DNA of 9,750 bases from Candidatus Delongbacteria bacterium. GTDB lineage: Bacteria; UBA4055. The translations under genes were made by a program, and so were the position numbers. The stretch is taken from NCBI GenBank assembly GCA_016937995.1, contig JAFGVM010000070.1:1-9750 (forward strand), in the 5' to 3' direction. Under the pieces are notes generated by a model. That model was not told the DNA's origin. It saw only the letters and a program-made list of their open reading frames with translations, and made no database searches. Positions 2,090 through 9,750 of the stretch are shown piece after piece (position 1 is the stretch's first letter; every line of letters begins with the position of its first letter).

Positions 2090-5053
2090 ATGCCTGATCT
2101 AATCAATAAATTTGAACGATACTATTTTGAAGATACAAAATTTGAACTGTTAATGCCTGAAAGAATTTCTGAAATTCTGTTAATCTGTACGGACTATGAT
2201 GCTTTTATGCTTGAGGAAGACGGACGGATCGAAGAGCAGGTTTTTAGAGAATACGGCGCTCTGAACTTACGATTCCCTCCTCATTTTCACAGGGTTACAT
2301 CTATAAAAGAAGCTAAAAAATTGTTAGCTGAAAAAGATTTTGATCTGATTATAACTATGCACTCACATGGTTTCTGGGATGCTTTTAAGATCAATTCAGA
2401 ACTAAAAAGCCTGTATCCTCAAAAACCTATCGTTGTTCTTGCTCCTTTTTCAAGAGATGTACTCGATAAATATGAAACTCTGGAACATGGAGGTTCAGAC
2501 TTTGTTTTTTCATGGCTGGGAAATTCTGACATTTTATTAGCTATAATTAAGCTTATTGAGGATAAATTAAATGTTGAGCATGATGTTAAGATAGTAGGTG
2601 TTCAGACTATTATCCTTGTAGAAAATTCTATCAGATATTACTCAAGTTATCTACCTGAACTTTATAAAACAATAATGAGTCAGACCCACAGTGTAATGAG
2701 TGAGTACATGAACGAACATCAGAAAAATTTGAGAATGAGAGGAAGGCCAAAGATATTACTAGCTACAAATTATGAAGAAGCAATTGATCTATATGAACGT
2801 TACAAGCATAATCTACTCGGAATAATTACTGATGTAGAGTTTGAAAGAAATAAAATTCACGACCATGATGCCGGAATTAAACTTAGTGAACATGTTCGAA
2901 AAGAAGATAACCGTTTACCTATCCTGATGCAATCTTCAAATGAGAATAACAGGTCAAGAGCAAAAAAATTAAATGCAGGATTCATTAACAAACAATCTAA
3001 TATCCTTCTGAACGAGCTGGTCGATTTTGTTCAGGTCAGGTTTGGATTTGGGGATTTTATTTTTCGTGATCCGGTAGATCTTGAACCAGTCGCAACTGCT
3101 TCAAACCTGAGAGAACTTCAGAAATGCTTAAAAGATATTCCTGCTGAGTCTCTGGCCCATCATGCAAACAATGATCATTTTTCTAAATGGTTAAGGGCAA
3201 GGACCCTGTTCCCTCTGGCTAATATCTTCAGATCAAAGAAAATAAATGATTTCCGATCAACAGATGATATCAGAGAGTATCTGATAAACATTATCAAATA
3301 TTATCGCAGAAGCAGCAGTAGAGGTATCATAGCACACTTTAATAAAGACAGATTCGACGAAGTATCCGGATTTTCCAGGCTGGGACACGGACAGCTTGGA
3401 GGTAAAGCAAGAGGTTTGGCTTTCTCAGATTATATTCTAAAAAAACATAGAATGAATTTTAAATATGACAAGATTGTTCTATCAATACCTCAAACAGTTG
3501 TATTGGCTACAGATGTTTTTAAGGAGTTCATGGATATTAATAAGCTTTATGATATAGCTTATTCTTCGGAAGATGATAAATTTATCCTGGACACTTTTAT
3601 CAGAGCAAGATTTCCAGAATCGGTCATGCCTGACCTAAGAATTTTAATGGAAAGGATGGTTAGACCTTTAGCGATAAGATCATCAAGTCTTCTGGAGGAT
3701 TCAACCTATCAGCCATTCGCAGGGATATATTCAACATATATGATCCCGAACAACGATTCAAATTTTAAAGTCCGGTTAACTGAACTTTGCGATGCTATCA
3801 AATGTGTGTTCGCTTCAACTTTCTTTACGAACAGTAAAAAATATCTAAAGGCTACAAAAAATGTTATTGATGAAGAAAAGATGGCAGTTATCATTCAGGA
3901 GATCTCAGGTAGAACTTATGGCAATATACATTATCCGACTTTTTCGGGAGTTGCAAGATCCATAAATAATTATCCTACCGGTTATGAAAAAGCCGATAGA
4001 CCAATCGTTAACATTGCAGCGGGATTGGGTAAAACTATTGTTGATGGAAAAACATCTTTAAGGTTCTCACCTGATTTTCCAAAGAATGTAATTCAGACTT
4101 CATCAACCGAGTCTACTTTGAAAAATACTCAAAAGAAATTTTATGCACTGGACCTGCAGGAAGACTCTTTTAGACCGAACACTGATGACAGTATGAATCT
4201 TCTGGAGCAGGATATATATGAAGGAGTGAAAAATGAATCATTTGAAAGTATAGTGTCCACTCTCGATTATGAGAACAACGTAATAAGAGACAATTTTCAC
4301 TATCAGGGTCCAAAATTCATGACTTTTGCAAATATTCTGAAAAGACAGACATTCCCGTTAAGTGAAATATTGATAGACATTCTTTCTCTTCTGGAGAGAA
4401 CGATGAATAATCCTGTCGAAATTGAGTTTGCTGTTAACATTGACCCGTTCAATAATATAAATTATTTTGATCTCCTGCAGGCAAGACCGATAGTTTCAGG
4501 ATTTGAATCACTCGACATTGATGTTGAAAAGTCTGATGATAAAAGTTCCATTATTAAATCGAACAATGCCTTGGGGAACGGATCTATCGAAAATATTTTT
4601 GATATCATATATGTTAAACCTGAATCGTTTGATCACTCAAAGACATTGAAGATCATGGATACAATTAAAGTACTTAATGCTAAAATGATAAAACATAAGA
4701 AAAAATATATTCTGATCGGTCCGGGAAGATGGGGAACTTCAGATCCATGGTTGGGTATGCCTGTTAAATGGGCAGATATTTCTCAAGCATCAGTAATTGT
4801 TGAGGCCGGATTAAAAGATTTCATTATTGAGCAGAGTCAGGGATCTCATTTTTTTCACAACATAACAACTTTCGGTATAATATATTATACGGTCAACCCC
4901 TTTAAAAACGATGGTTATTATGATGTTGAATTTCTTGGCAAACAAAAAGCTCTATTCGAAGATGAATTTGTTAAGCACATCCGTTTTAAAAAACCGGTTA
5001 TCGTTAAAACTGACGGCAGATCAGGTAATGGTGTTATATTAAAACCCGTCTAA
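2090..5053 (+). CDS. PEP/pyruvate-binding (PPDK N-terminal-type) protein with two receiver-like domains
   Basis: A 987-residue protein without signal peptide or membrane segments. Residues about 27-160 look like a degenerate response-regulator receiver: the phosphoacceptor slot reads IITM (87-90), without Asp. Residues about 219-320 form a second receiver-like domain that keeps D248 (GIITDVE), S282/S283 and K301. From about 430 to 800 lies the ATP-binding domain of pyruvate phosphate dikinase and PEP synthase: GGKARG (437-442), the conserved Arg in AIRSSSLLEDS (R530), QPFAGIYST (541-549) and QARP (797-800). The C-terminal part (about 840-987) has a conserved-looking IGPGRWGTSDPW (876-887). 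The swivelling phosphohistidine domain and the C-terminal PEP-binding barrel are absent, so a complete PPDK or PEP synthase reaction is unlikely. I infer a phosphotransfer or regulatory protein. No Shine-Dalgarno or convincing forward promoter is visible upstream. Confidence 0.85.
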   Translation: MPDLINKFERYYFEDTKFELLMPERISEILLICTDYDAFMLEEDGRIEEQVFREYGALNLRFPPHFHRVTSIKEAKKLLAEKDFDLIITMHSHGFWDAFKINSELKSLYPQKPIVVLAPFSRDVLDKYETLEHGGSDFVFSWLGNSDILLAIIKLIEDKLNVEHDVKIVGVQTIILVENSIRYYSSYLPELYKTIMSQTHSVMSEYMNEHQKNLRMRGRPKILLATNYEEAIDLYERYKHNLLGIITDVEFERNKIHDHDAGIKLSEHVRKEDNRLPILMQSSNENNRSRAKKLNAGFINKQSNILLNELVDFVQVRFGFGDFIFRDPVDLEPVATASNLRELQKCLKDIPAESLAHHANNDHFSKWLRARTLFPLANIFRSKKINDFRSTDDIREYLINIIKYYRRSSSRGIIAHFNKDRFDEVSGFSRLGHGQLGGKARGLAFSDYILKKHRMNFKYDKIVLSIPQTVVLATDVFKEFMDINKLYDIAYSSEDDKFILDTFIRARFPESVMPDLRILMERMVRPLAIRSSSLLEDSTYQPFAGIYSTYMIPNNDSNFKVRLTELCDAIKCVFASTFFTNSKKYLKATKNVIDEEKMAVIIQEISGRTYGNIHYPTFSGVARSINNYPTGYEKADRPIVNIAAGLGKTIVDGKTSLRFSPDFPKNVIQTSSTESTLKNTQKKFYALDLQEDSFRPNTDDSMNLLEQDIYEGVKNESFESIVSTLDYENNVIRDNFHYQGPKFMTFANILKRQTFPLSEILIDILSLLERTMNNPVEIEFAVNIDPFNNINYFDLLQARPIVSGFESLDIDVEKSDDKSSIIKSNNALGNGSIENIFDIIYVKPESFDHSKTLKIMDTIKVLNAKMIKHKKKYILIGPGRWGTSDPWLGMPVKWADISQASVIVEAGLKDFIIEQSQGSHFFHNITTFGIIYYTVNPFKNDGYYDVEFLGKQKALFEDEFVKHIRFKKPVIVKTDGRSGNGVILKPV

Positions 5054-5060
5054 TTTTATT

Positions 5061-5768
5061 CTAAATTTTCCCTGTCTCAAAATATTCGCTGATAATTTTT
5101 TTTATTTTCGATGCAGCAGTGGTTGCCCGTTCATAAAATGTATATGTAAAAATAGAGTCGTCTATTGCAAATGACTTATCCAGATTATTCAAAATCGAAT
5201 ATCTTGTGTATGAAGCAAATTGAGATACAGGAAGCACTTCCCCGCTTGTTCCGATTATTACAAGCAGATCGGTTTTCATCAATTCATTATACAGCCTCTG
5301 ATACATTGGAGCAGGTTCACCGAACATAACAACGTTATGTCTGAGAGAGTGACTTTTACACTCAGGACATTCTGAGAATTCTTTTATAGATCTGTACTCA
5401 ATGTCAAATTCATTCCCGCAAACTTCACACTTAAGCTCTCTTAACTTACCATGAAGATGTATTACTTCCTTACAACCTGATTTTTCCAACAGATCATCAA
5501 CATTTTGAGTCATAACTGTAATATTTCCAGGGTATTTTTCTTTTAATCCACTTATCATAAAATGCGAATCATTAGGTAATTTATCACTTATATCTTTTCT
5601 TCTTTTATCGTAAAAATCAAGAACAAGCTGCCTATCCTGAATAAATCCCTGAACGGAACATACTTCCATAACATTGTGCTCTTCCCACATACCATTGTTG
5701 GACCTGAAGGTCCTTATGCCAGATTCAGCTGATAACCCAGCCCCGCTTAATATTAAAACTTTATTCAT
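5061..5768 (-). CDS. Sirtuin (NAD-dependent protein deacylase, class III-like)
   Basis: A 235-residue Sir2-family enzyme that removes acyl groups from protein lysines using NAD. It is full length for a bacterial sirtuin. Visible motifs are the NAD-binding GAGLSAESGIRTFR (9-22), TQNVDDL (87-93), the catalytic His in HLHG (H106), four zinc cysteines C114, C117, C134 and C137, VVMFGE (146-151) and IIGTSGEVLPVSQF (171-184). Y53 and R56 in FYDKRRK fit the YxxR signature of SIRT5/CobB-type sirtuins, linked to removal of succinyl and malonyl groups, so desuccinylation is a reasonable inference. It converges with the preceding gene with 7 bp between stop codons and no room for a dedicated terminator. 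GGTGAG lies directly against the start codon, a close-set ribosome binding site. No clear promoter was found. Confidence 0.93.
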   Translation of the reverse strand: MNKVLILSGAGLSAESGIRTFRSNNGMWEEHNVMEVCSVQGFIQDRQLVLDFYDKRRKDISDKLPNDSHFMISGLKEKYPGNITVMTQNVDDLLEKSGCKEVIHLHGKLRELKCEVCGNEFDIEYRSIKEFSECPECKSHSLRHNVVMFGEPAPMYQRLYNELMKTDLLVIIGTSGEVLPVSQFASYTRYSILNNLDKSFAIDDSIFTYTFYERATTAASKIKKIISEYFETGKI

Positions 5769-7381: not shown

Positions 7382-7405
7382 TTAACATATTTTGAACCGA
7401 ATCTT

Positions 7406-7440
7406 AAAGGGCTGATCATCATTCAGCCCTTTTTTATTTT
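7406..7440 (+). terminator. Intrinsic terminator of gdhA
   Basis: AAAGGGCTGA (7406-7415) pairs perfectly with TCAGCCCTTT (7423-7432) around a 7-nt loop, followed by TTTATTTT. The hairpin begins 25 nt after the stop codon and closes the gdhA unit before the recombinase region. Confidence 0.93.
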
Positions 7441-7483
7441 AGAATCCCTTCAGCAGAAAAATTAATAAGCATAAACATTATAG

Positions 7484-7512
7484 TTGCAAAAATATAAGTA
7501 GTTATATATATT
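7484..7512 (+). promoter_or_regulatory. Predicted promoter of the tyrosine recombinase
   Basis: TTGCAA (7484-7489), a 17-bp spacer and TATATT (7507-7512) lie in the short gap between the gdhA terminator and the recombinase start. The -35 is weaker than in the gdhA promoter and the -10 is the same. No strong Shine-Dalgarno follows, so expression is probably modest. Confidence 0.6.
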
Positions 7513-7545
7513 GATATTTTATAAAATTATATTTGATGTGAAAAT

Positions 7546-8418
7546 ATGAATGAAGAAGCTAAAGAGAAGTATCTCGATTTATTAAAACTTAAAAATTACA
7601 GTAAGGCCACGATAAAGTCTTACGGTCATTGCTTTGATCTGTTTTTGGAACATTTCAAAAATGTTGACATTAATAATCTTACTAAAGACGACATCACAAG
7701 TTTTCTAATAAAAGAACATGAAAAAGGCTTATCATACGGTTATCAGAATCAGATAATCAATGCAATTAAGTTTTATTACGAGAAAGTTCTTAAGCAAAAG
7801 AGAGAACTTTATGATATCCCAAGAGCAAAAAGACCACAAAAACTTCCAGTTGTTTTCAGCGAAGAAGAAGTGCTCAAATTGATTGGAAGCATTGATAATT
7901 TAAAACATAAATCCATATTATACCTTATTTACTCTGCCGGATTAAGGATCAGTGAAGCAGTGAACATGAAAATTGCCGATATCGACTCAAAAAGAAATGT
8001 AGTGATCGTACGGGGCGGAAAAGGTAAAAAAGACAGGACAACACTTCTTTCAGAGAAATTACTTTTAATGTTAAGAAAGTATTATGTACAGTTTAGACCT
8101 AAAGATTTTCTGTTTGAAGGAGAAAATGGTGGTCAATATTCTATAAAAAGTATACAGAATGTTTTCAACAGGGCATTAACGAGATCTGGGATAAGAAAAA
8201 AAGCAACAGTACATTCATTAAGACACAGCTTTGCAACTCATCTACTTGAACACGGGACAGACTTAAGATATATTCAGCAATTACTGGGACATAACAGTTC
8301 AAAGACAACAGAGATATATACACACATTACGAAGAAGGGAATGGACAAAATAAAGAGTCCACTAGACAACCTAGAAGTACAGGAGAAAAAAACGCCATAT
8401 GGCGGTTTGCCATTTTAA
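7546..8418 (+). CDS. Tyrosine recombinase, Xer/IntI-like, next to attC-like sites
   Basis: A 290-residue site-specific recombinase. An N-terminal SAM-like core-binding domain (about 1-90) precedes the catalytic domain (about 100-270). All catalytic residues are present: R134 (AGLRISE), K159 (GGKGKKDR), H223 and R226 (HSLRHSF), H249 (LLGHNS) and the nucleophile Y258 (EIYTH). The KSPLDNL tail after the nucleophile resembles the RSPLD of integron integrases and related recombinases. However, the extra segment that classical IntI carries between the lysine and HxxR motifs (ALERKYPxAG in IntI1) is missing, so this is Xer-like in architecture. The last codons (KKTPYGGLPF) are written by a palindromic repeat that recurs 50 bp downstream. 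Cassette-like sequence starts 48 bp after its stop in the same orientation, as in the few integrons whose array follows the integrase 3' end. I infer that it recombines those sites. Confidence 0.88.
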   Translation: MNEEAKEKYLDLLKLKNYSKATIKSYGHCFDLFLEHFKNVDINNLTKDDITSFLIKEHEKGLSYGYQNQIINAIKFYYEKVLKQKRELYDIPRAKRPQKLPVVFSEEEVLKLIGSIDNLKHKSILYLIYSAGLRISEAVNMKIADIDSKRNVVIVRGGKGKKDRTTLLSEKLLLMLRKYYVQFRPKDFLFEGENGGQYSIKSIQNVFNRALTRSGIRKKATVHSLRHSFATHLLEHGTDLRYIQQLLGHNSSKTTEIYTHITKKGMDKIKSPLDNLEVQEKKTPYGGLPF

Positions 8419-8461
8419 CCAGGCACAAACTGGACAGCAAAACGCCATATGGCGTTTTGCC
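8389..8461 (+). repeat. Two direct copies of a palindromic repeat at the recombinase 3' end
   Basis: AACGCCATATGGCG occurs at 8391-8404 and 8441-8454, exactly 50 bp apart; identity continues to 8411 and 8461 with one difference (G8405 versus T8455). Each copy contains the 12-bp palindrome CGCCATATGGCG. In the second copy the symmetry extends to a perfect 24 bp (8437-8460, half-site GCAAAACGCCAT). The first copy encodes the recombinase C-terminus. Placed next to the first GTT site, they could be recombinase-binding sites, comparable to the direct repeats of attI1, or a hairpin. That role is inferred. Confidence 0.75.
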
Positions 8462-8486
8462 GCACGTTAGCTGAAATACCACACAC
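8459..8486 (+). other. Candidate attI-cassette junction (GTTAGCTG core)
   Basis: GTTAGCTG (8466-8473) is followed by AAA and TACCACACAC (8477-8486). Both blocks reappear as exact complements, in inverse order, at 9592-9613. In integrons, strand exchange falls between G and TT of a GTT core, so the cassette would begin at 8467. This box deviates slightly from the GTTRRRY consensus (C at the sixth position). No host gene overlaps it. Confidence 0.6.
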
Positions 8487-8502
8487 AAAGGAGCTTTTTT
8501 AT

Positions 8503-8565
8503 ATGATCTATATTTTAGTTGAAATTAATAAAATATATTTGTACAATTCACTAGAAATCCAGTAA
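8503..8565 (+). CDS. Possible 20-codon leader ORF in the cassette
   Basis: ATG at 8503 opens 20 codons ending in TAA (MIYILVEINKIYLYNSLEIQ). It is preceded by AAGGAG (8488-8493) with a 9-nt gap, a good ribosome binding site. It would be translated only from transcripts started upstream, because the cassette promoter at 8519-8547 lies inside it. It could be a leader peptide or an accident of the AT-rich start; nothing else supports it. Confidence 0.25.
   Translation: MIYILVEINKIYLYNSLEIQ
8519..8547 (+). promoter_or_regulatory. Predicted promoter carried by the cassette
   Basis: TTGAAA (8519-8524), a 17-bp spacer and TACAAT (8542-8547) lie within the cassette, about 37 nt before the 56-codon gene. 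Most integron cassettes lack promoters; those carrying one are often toxin-antitoxin or other self-sufficient functions. Confidence 0.6.
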
Positions 8566-8583
8566 TTATCAGGAGGAAGTAAG

Positions 8584-8754
8584 ATGCAAAAACTTATCAC
8601 GATTTATGTAAACGGTTTTAGACTAGAAGAATTTTCTGCTAATGAACATTTAAATAAATATCTTAGTGATGGATGGTACATTGTTTCTGTTACGACAGCA
8701 GGTTCTGGTGAAAAAGTCAAATGGTTAATAACTGTTGTTTTAGGTAAAGACTGA
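8584..8754 (+). CDS. Small cassette protein, DUF4177-like (56 aa)
   Basis: A short gene with a near-ideal ribosome binding site (AGGAGG at 8571-8576, 7 nt before the ATG), stronger than those of most host genes here. The protein starts with a beta-like stretch (KLITIYVNG), has a probable helix (EFSANEHLNKYLSDG) and ends in two hydrophobic strands (GWYIVSVTTAG and KWLITVVLG). The pattern 'LNxxLxxGWxIVSVT' followed by a strand resembles small DUF4177-type proteins, whose function is not settled. No membrane segment or signal peptide is evident. The stop is 7 nt before the start of the 271-residue gene, so the two are probably translationally coupled and may act together. A role as partner or antitoxin is speculation. 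Confidence 0.75.
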   Translation: MQKLITIYVNGFRLEEFSANEHLNKYLSDGWYIVSVTTAGSGEKVKWLITVVLGKD

Positions 8755-8761
8755 GCTGTAT

Positions 8762-9577
8762 ATGGCAATGTTTATTAATATTTCTTGGCCACAAAACAAA
8801 AGGTTGAAAGTAGCAACTTCGGCTCATGCGTTCTCTTTGATACATAATTCTCTGAATACCTCAACTTTTGTTTCAATGATCGGGAGTGATTTGATTGTTA
8901 ATGGATTATTTGACATCACGAACCTTGTTCCAGATGTTGATCGATATCGTATTTTGTCAAATGTACTATCTTCACATAATAATTGTACGGTTTGTCCAAA
9001 TAATAATAACTTTAAAGATATATTACCCAGCCAGTCATCCTCTTTTGATAAAACGATTGTTCTAGTTATCGAATCACCTCACGATCATGAATTTATCTAT
9101 TTAAATAATAATCTTGTCCCAATTGCACCCGCACAAGCTAATAAGAAAAAAAGAGGGGCTGGATTCGCTATAGAAAATTATTTGAAATGTAACATCCTAT
9201 CACAGATATCAAACTATCCACAACATAATGTCAGAATTATTATAGCTAATCCAATTCAATTTCAGACTTCGTTATTTGTAATTCATAAGAAAGGCGGTCG
9301 AATAGCAAAAGATCTTAGAAATTCGGTTTGGCAAGCCCTATGGCGTCAAAAAAATATTCGGGCCAATTTTTTTGATAGATTAAAATGCTATGAGCCGGAT
9401 TTAATAATTAATTCTTGTACTGGGGGTCAAGATAAACGTGGTAGCTTGAATTATTTTATTAGTAAATTTCTTGTCCAGCACAGTTTTAGCTATATTTCTT
9501 ATAAAACAGGTCATCCTTCATCTGTATGGTACAGAACAATAAACGGTCGTCCTTTTGCGAAGGTAACAAAAATATAG
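8762..9577 (+). CDS. Uncharacterised cassette protein, possible uracil-DNA-glycosylase-like fold (271 aa)
   Basis: I do not recognise this protein by name. Visible blocks are a Cys pair CTVC (75-78), VLVIESPHDHE (100-110) then PAQ (123-125) and GAGFAI (132-137), VRIIIANPIQFQTS (157-170), a basic middle ending LRNSVWQALW (185-194), PDLIINSCTGG (212-222) and TGHPSSVW (249-256). The order of an acidic/proline loop after a strand, an Asn after a strand, a strand with a Gly-rich end, and a late HPS recalls uracil-DNA glycosylases (GExPG ... N ... HPS), so a nucleic-acid-acting enzyme of that fold is a tentative inference. No membrane segment. No Shine-Dalgarno precedes ATG 8762; translation probably depends on the upstream 56-codon gene. 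ATG 8768 is an alternative start. The gene runs to within 30 bp of the cassette end. Confidence 0.8.
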   Translation: MAMFINISWPQNKRLKVATSAHAFSLIHNSLNTSTFVSMIGSDLIVNGLFDITNLVPDVDRYRILSNVLSSHNNCTVCPNNNNFKDILPSQSSSFDKTIVLVIESPHDHEFIYLNNNLVPIAPAQANKKKRGAGFAIENYLKCNILSQISNYPQHNVRIIIANPIQFQTSLFVIHKKGGRIAKDLRNSVWQALWRQKNIRANFFDRLKCYEPDLIINSCTGGQDKRGSLNYFISKFLVQHSFSYISYKTGHPSSVWYRTINGRPFAKVTKI

Positions 9578-9591
9578 GATAATATCTCTCA

Positions 9592-9675
9592 GTGTGTGGT
9601 ACTTGCAGCTAACATTGGAAAAATGACTTGACCCGAGTTATATTTTATCTAGTGAGCTTTTTTCCATGACCGTTA
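9592..9675 (+). other. Candidate attC site at the cassette end
   Basis: The outer block GTGTGTGGTA (9592-9601) and R''-like CAGCTAAC (9606-9613) complement the cassette start. Next, ATTGGAAAAA (9614-9623) pairs with TTTTTCCAT (9659-9667) with one T left unpaired, followed by GACC and GTTA (9672-9675), which pairs with TAAC (9610-9613). This gives two paired boxes, a roughly 35-nt central region and an extrahelical base, as expected of an attC that is recombined as a folded single strand. The central region shows no clear long stem. Confidence 0.55.
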
Positions 9676-9737
9676 TGATCAATTGCAACTTTAAATAACG
9701 GTAGAGGAGGTAGAAGATGTTATACAAGCCTATTTAA
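9670..9737 (+). other. Start of a possible second cassette: hairpin, strong RBS and a 6-codon ORF
   Basis: CCGTTAT (9670-9676) is the exact complement of ATAACGG (9695-9701), making a hairpin that starts at the presumed recombination point. GAGGAGG (9704-9710) follows, then ATG at 9717 opening MLYKPI before TAA at 9737. The ribosome binding site is as strong as that inside the first cassette, but the ORF is tiny, so it may be a leader peptide or not a gene. The window ends 13 bases later. Confidence 0.35.
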
Positions 9738-9750
9738 CCCGATTAAAAAA

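Follow-up and report, generated by a model that had tools for sequence, protein, structure and literature searches.

A 1206-bp unit in a draft genome of Candidatus Delongbacteria can be read from its sequence, with high confidence, as a gene cassette belonging to an integron-like system whose proposed integrase lacks I2, the additional domain of the integron integrases (IntI); recombination itself has not been shown. The unit occupies 8467-9672 of the window, that is, of the whole 9750-bp stretch of DNA analysed, which is a complete contig (C16) of the genome (G000; hereafter, C numbers denote its contigs and L numbers the loci examined). The closest named relatives of this genome are Candidatus Delongbacteria, and its assembly, a draft of 99 contigs that is 96.95% complete, breaks at the attI- and attC-like sites themselves. 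In an Rfam scan of the window a tRNA alone scored above threshold, with no match to an attC family. Elsewhere in the window, two near-identical copies of AAAAAAAAACTTGACTTCAATTTTC, ~60 bp apart (within 1-90), lie immediately upstream of this tRNA (119-191), and 2090-5053 encodes a 987-aa protein with a PPDK_N domain (PEP-synthase type, ATP-binding) and a sub-threshold response-regulator match.

Cassette boundaries and complementary ends

The cassette was delimited from G|TT to G|TT by the pairing of its ends and the folding of its junction, and the crossover is inferred to fall between G8466 and T8467; this and all further features of the system in the window lie on the + strand. Its left end consists of an R' box, GTTAGCTG (GTT followed by AGCTG, 8466-8473), and an outer box O', ACCACACAC (8478-8486), which pairs at nine of nine positions with its partner O'', GTGTGTGGT (9592-9600). 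Its right end is an attC-like site (9606-9672), in which R'' (CAGCTAAC, 9606-9613) is followed by L'', a variable centre, L', a TGACC spacer (9667-9671) and G9672. The original prediction had stated that 8466-8473 and 9606-9613 are exact complements and that a GTT core follows at 9672-9674; letters and coordinates were correct, and the complementarity had been understated, as the pairing actually extends over 21-22 nt (GTTAGCTG-aaaT-ACCACACAC / GTGTGTGGT-ACttg-CAGCTAAC). When aligned, the ends read GTTAGCTGAAATACCACACAC (8466-8486) against GTTAGCTGCAAGTACCACACAC, the reverse complement of 9592-9613, or, box by box, GTT-AGCTG-AAAT-ACCACACAC against GTT-AGCTG-CAAGT-ACCACACAC. Two points were absent from the prediction: a second stem within the attC-like site, between L'' (TGGAAAAA, 9616-9623) and L' (TTTTTCCA, 9659-9666), and a connection to the tyrosine recombinase gene just upstream of the cassette.

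The cassette's own ends are the sole GTT/AAC-anchored pair in the window with a score of at least 14, a value that none of 300 dinucleotide shuffles of 7401-9750 reached (best 13.5, mean of the best 7.5). The claim that this pairing exists at the joined junction and is absent from the linear DNA was likewise upheld: folded as single-stranded DNA, the junction of the joined circle gave -20.6 kcal/mol (z -7.6), versus -6.2 kcal/mol (z -0.2) for the linear sequence at 9672.

The cassette harbors two ORFs, one of 56 aa (8584-8754) without a match to any curated family and one of 271 aa (8762-9577) for which Pfam, NCBIfam and PADLOC returned no family. For the 271-aa protein, 12 sister genomes yielded a single remote relative (38%), viral contigs none and plasmids one weak match. 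The cassette is followed by the start of a second one (9673-9750), truncated by the contig end, whose first bases, ATGATCAATTGCAA, match an attC end, ATGATCTGTTGCAA, on contig C23 (row L223).

Sites and arrays in related genomes

When 13 genomes of the order were searched for the right-hand motif, 12 gave matches, with the reversed control near-empty, and these included tandem rows such as six matches in 5.3 kb (G005:C25) and four on G009:C13. From the same and sister genomes we extracted 78 distinct full attC-like sites, laid out as AAC, AT, L'' (TGGCAAAA type), variable centre, L' (TTTTGCCA type), TGACC and GTT. Many of them stand in co-directional arrays with a spacing of ~1 kb (a control pattern gave near zero), some with four to five extracted sites (e.g., L204, L205 and L207), and the longest ORF was co-directional in 29 of 35 cassettes. 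Cargo genes observed at L205, L216, L218 and L220 encode YhcG-type nucleases, a C5 DNA methylase, an Abi_2 protein and a zeta-toxin-like kinase.

Cutting at G|TT predicts that the first bases of a cassette pair with its own end and not with that of its neighbour. Across 36 cassettes, the start-end score averaged 12.6 with the own end versus 5.5 with other ends, the own end ranked best of the 36 for 27 cassettes, and the sum of own-end pairing was not reached in any of 20,000 permutations. Contiguous R matches in the same cassettes averaged 4.3 nt with the own end versus 1.0 nt with the adjoining next cassette. The outer box, scored without the R box, lay above every permutation, and where the 5-nt R boxes matched (27 cassettes), it paired at all nine positions in 22 (spacer length being picked for best fit). 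Since sister cassettes thus pair their own start with their own end, the predicted boundaries of a cassette of ~1206 bp hold. In most cassettes, R and outer box are separated by a conserved internal loop with AT on one side and AC on the other, and the R box keeps GTTR with variable later positions (GTTAGCT in the window cassette; the integron consensus is GTTRRRY). A simple start-end test on the first cassette at each of 47 distant loci beat shuffles in only five, probably due to shorter outer boxes there. Arrays were afterwards seen in individual cases, and in most of the distant relatives an integrase is followed by a palindrome and core, with arrays in some only.

Imperfect inverted ends of 21-22 nt around two ORFs might also be expected of a transposon or MITE-like element with terminal inverted repeats GTTAGCTG...CAGCTAAC. 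However, the ends vary by cassette around a common internal attC body, the units stand head to tail in arrays, the window unit has no transposase, and attI and attC alternate at the right junction with one and the same base as the switch point, and so we regard this explanation as hardly tenable. The original prediction had already stated that simple transposon ends would not be expected to show such pairing, which agrees with our finding that every cassette has a different end sequence, unlike the terminal repeats of a transposon. A transposon with identical terminal repeats in all copies is contradicted by the cassette-specific ends.

The units could alternatively be modules of the Xer/dif type (as pdif modules), recombined at ordinary double-stranded sites, with the hairpin complementarity merely incidental. 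That the recombinase is nearest to XerA in both sequence and fold, and that the attI-like repeats are palindromic, would fit such modules, yet over dozens of sites the R, outer and L boxes are cassette-specific and covary, as expected of a folded strand (for the L boxes, 39 distinct sites displayed T-A, A-T and G-C at one pair and C-G/A-T and A-T/T-A at others), and no constant dif-like 28-mer flanks the cassettes. A XerA-type resolvase acting at a single dif is further argued against by three intact gene copies, two of them beside attI-like repeats. We consider Xer/dif modules unlikely, though the least so of the rival explanations, and retain cassettes of an integron-like system as our reading.

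attI-like platforms and the recombinase

Directly before the cassette lies an attI-like site (8379-8466), composed of two 33-bp repeats (8379-8411 and 8429-8461), each with a CGCCATATGGCG palindrome, and ending in CGCAC|G at 8466. Its right part, TTTTGCC-GCAC-GTT, resembles in sequence the attC TTTTTCCATGACC-GTT, and its second repeat ends in GTTTTGCCGCAC|GTT, similar to what the cassette's attC has as its right half, CTTTTTTCCATGACC|GTT. The structure recurs at C6, C21, C39 and C56 of the same genome and at L085-L091, and attI-like sites without an integrase gene were found at C6, C21, C40 and C56. These four integrase-less platforms (L032, L031, L034 and L033, respectively) share a common ~90-bp left module, CCACTTGCAGAAGTCAATAATTTTCACTACAATGTAGTGAT. 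At C40 (L034, 7541-9895), the integrase-less attI-like site precedes a nucleotidyltransferase/HEPN pair and a reverse transcriptase with a bAvd protein, of the diversity-generating retroelement type; the start here, GTTAGGGGC...CCGGTG, is complementary to the end of an array on contig C13 (L230, ~1691).

Eleven places in the genome carry a fixed right module (GTTGTG..CTTCCACAACATTGGCAAAATG..ATCATCTATGGGTCCGAATGCTTTAGCA) or its core, most copies ending in GGGTCCGAATGCTTTAGCA with diverging sequences beyond. In empty platforms (C56, C39:14.8k and C65) this module, as a fixed end of the array, directly follows an attI-type GCAC or ACAC, and in filled platforms (C32, C39:0.6k, C43 and C68) an attC-type ATGACC, the switch in this genome falling exactly at GTT. 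Platforms with and without cassettes within one genome thereby give further support to the predicted boundaries. In a sister genome (L086) the orthologous platform is conserved (78-90%) from window position 5100 through the recombinase up to the core, beyond which other DNA follows. The platforms themselves seem to be dispersed repeats, and their spread is unexplained.

The recombinase gene (7546-8418), which ends 48 bp before the cassette, encodes a 290-aa tyrosine recombinase (Pfam Phage_integrase, 3.6e-40), an I2-less relative of XerA and IntI that we propose as the integrase of the platform. TIGR02249, the integron-integrase model, matches it at 8-177 and 240-315 with positions 178-239 missing, and remains below cut-off. 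Compared with the solved integron integrase 2a3v, ~42 residues are absent, and the spacing from KGxKxR to LRH is 58 aa in nearly all of 80 relatives versus 100 in IntI1 (a single relative with an apparent 100-residue spacing was, on inspection, a false motif match). Thirty relatives show no variation at the six catalytic residues, R134, K159, H223, R226, H249 and Y258. An AlphaFold model (mean pLDDT 86) matched XerA 5hxy with a Z of 23.9 and IntI 2a3v with a Z of 20.9, at whole-chain rmsds of 8.5-10.8 Å, which in this predicted structure probably reflect domain arrangement. A quick tree placed a branch (supports of 91 and 99) between the I2-less proteins and the canonical IntIs; its root is unsure, and long branches left the I2-less clade unplaceable relative to the Xer outgroup.

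The genome contains three intact I2-less integrases, on C16 (the window), C78 (74%) and C43 (55%), the first two adjoining attI-like repeats and the third on a contig that stops ~60 bp past the gene. It further contains two integrase remnants, on C39 and C19, which also lie at attI-like repeats, and separate Xer-like genes on C56. TIGR02249 picked out no canonical IntI over its cut-off, either in the genome, a 99-contig draft whose gaps could hide one, or in five named relatives that possess the I2-less enzyme. Such a hidden enzyme is what another explanation requires: a true cassette array moved by a canonical IntI, located in a gap or in another cell, with the I2-less recombinase a bystander, e.g., a Xer-like resolvase. 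I2 is, after all, the described attC-docking part of IntI (PMC7790495), the draft breaks at these sites, and in a draw of 296 genomes from another phylum, that of a Spirosoma MAG, 85 carried a canonical IntI (a figure we do not take as a rate for Bacteroidota). Some of these carry a canonical IntI and an I2-less relative together, and in such genomes action of the former in trans is possible. Nevertheless, the absence of any over-cut-off IntI from the genome and its five relatives, the occurrence of the I2-less gene at attI-like repeats, twice intact and twice as a remnant, the palindrome and core after the family gene in many phyla and the invariant catalytic residues all speak against a bystander, and we deem this explanation quite improbable.

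Spread, proposed mechanism and known systems

Relatives of the I2-less recombinase were found in Delongbacteria, Bacteroidota, Cloacimonadota, Neomarinimicrobiota, Edwardsbacteria and others, and in many phyla the gene is often followed by a palindrome and GTT core. Among 80 relatives, the contig breaks off within 1 kb on the downstream side of the gene in 34 and on the upstream side in seven, as would be expected of repeated arrays. On a complete Rufibacter plasmid, the integrase gene precedes eight co-directional genes, mostly small hypotheticals, with attC-like sites such as AAC-A-TTGTATAAAC..GTTTATAC-GAGGCC|GTT. An integrase of the same clade was also observed at two places of one genome, the complete genome of Acinetobacter portensis (L162 and L147), a member of the Pseudomonadota to which it was probably transferred. 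In Flexithrix dorotheae (the L105 genome; G014:C28, 46625-56271), several fragments of ~75 aa within 10 kb match the C-terminal end of the integrase only and resemble the remnants that the window's genome has at C19 and C39.

As far as sequence alone can define them, a platform is a tyrosine recombinase gene with an attI-like repeat site ending in CGCAC|GTT, cassettes have TT-N5 at their start and an attC-like site (N5-AAC, L'', variable centre, L', CC|G) at their end, and empty and filled platforms coexist within one genome. The ends of each cassette being mutually complementary, the complete three-box hairpin (outer, R and L) is predicted to form only in the excised circle. The system thus matches integrons in having an attI-like site beside the integrase, attC-like ends of the R''-L''-L'-R' type and tandem co-directional arrays. 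It is not an integron sensu stricto by the IntI-domain test, which its recombinase fails for want of I2, and so we file it as an integron-like variant. The label "integron-type" given in the original prediction therefore fits the mode of working, and not as an unqualified family name, given this recombinase and the extra outer stem.

In this mode the system very likely captures and excises cassettes at G|TT as integrons do, an activity inferred without reads, PCR or evidence of circles; no recombination was observed. We propose that the neighbouring recombinase would cut at G|TT, that cassettes would be excised as circles via attC x attC, and that circles would be inserted at attI, probably through one folded strand of their attC. 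Handling of a folded attC by an I2-less enzyme is unexpected, as I2 is reported to be the part of IntI, a helix, that docks the extrahelical bases of attC, and intermediates are said to be missing (PMC7790495). As the recombinase has no such helix, the choice of strand and orientation may fall to the asymmetric spacers (2 nt versus 5 nt) together with the long outer stem, which is a guess on our part. Whether this amounts to a widespread second kind of integron, present in Delongbacteria, Bacteroidota, Cloacimonadota, Neomarinimicrobiota and others, with an I2-less XerA/IntI-like enzyme and an outer third stem that sets strand and orientation in place of extrahelical bases bound by I2, is in our estimate an even call; such a kind would either have arisen independently or have survived from a pre-I2 state.

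If the I2-less enzyme works, the accepted requirement of I2 for folded attC would not be general, and the missing intermediates (PMC7790495) would be open to direct study. Integron surveys select by the additional domain of IntI (PMC2426708, PMC9668308) and would pass over such systems, and we found no description of I2-less cassette arrays in the literature (open-licence PMC text only). Our data also suggest that several bacterial phyla have a mobile gene pool, with defence-type genes among the cargo observed here.

In common with integrons (e.g., class 1 and the Vibrio superintegrons), the system has a recombinase gene, an attI-like site, co-directional cassettes of ~1 kb, attC-like R/L hairpins, a GTT core, full R pairing in the circle only, and empty and filled platforms. 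It differs from them in its recombinase without I2, in an extra outer stem of ~9 bp inside the cassette, apparently in an R box of GTTRNNNN and not GTTRRRY, and in several dispersed platforms per genome, some integrase-less. To our knowledge, the outer 9-bp stem is absent from canonical attC. The chromosomal integrons of Treponema share an integrase transcribed toward attI, whereas their intI belongs to the canonical IntI family (PMC3607928). Within the "Integron-like" subgroup of tyrosine recombinases, insertion-less members are, in the part of that source available to us, presented without linked cassettes or sites (PMC8138268). The XerA and XerC-like simple tyrosine recombinases (5hxy, 4a8e; NF040815) are closest among solved structures in fold and sequence and likewise have no I2 insertion, but they resolve chromosome dimers at dif, whereas the window recombinase sits at attI-like repeats beside cassette arrays.
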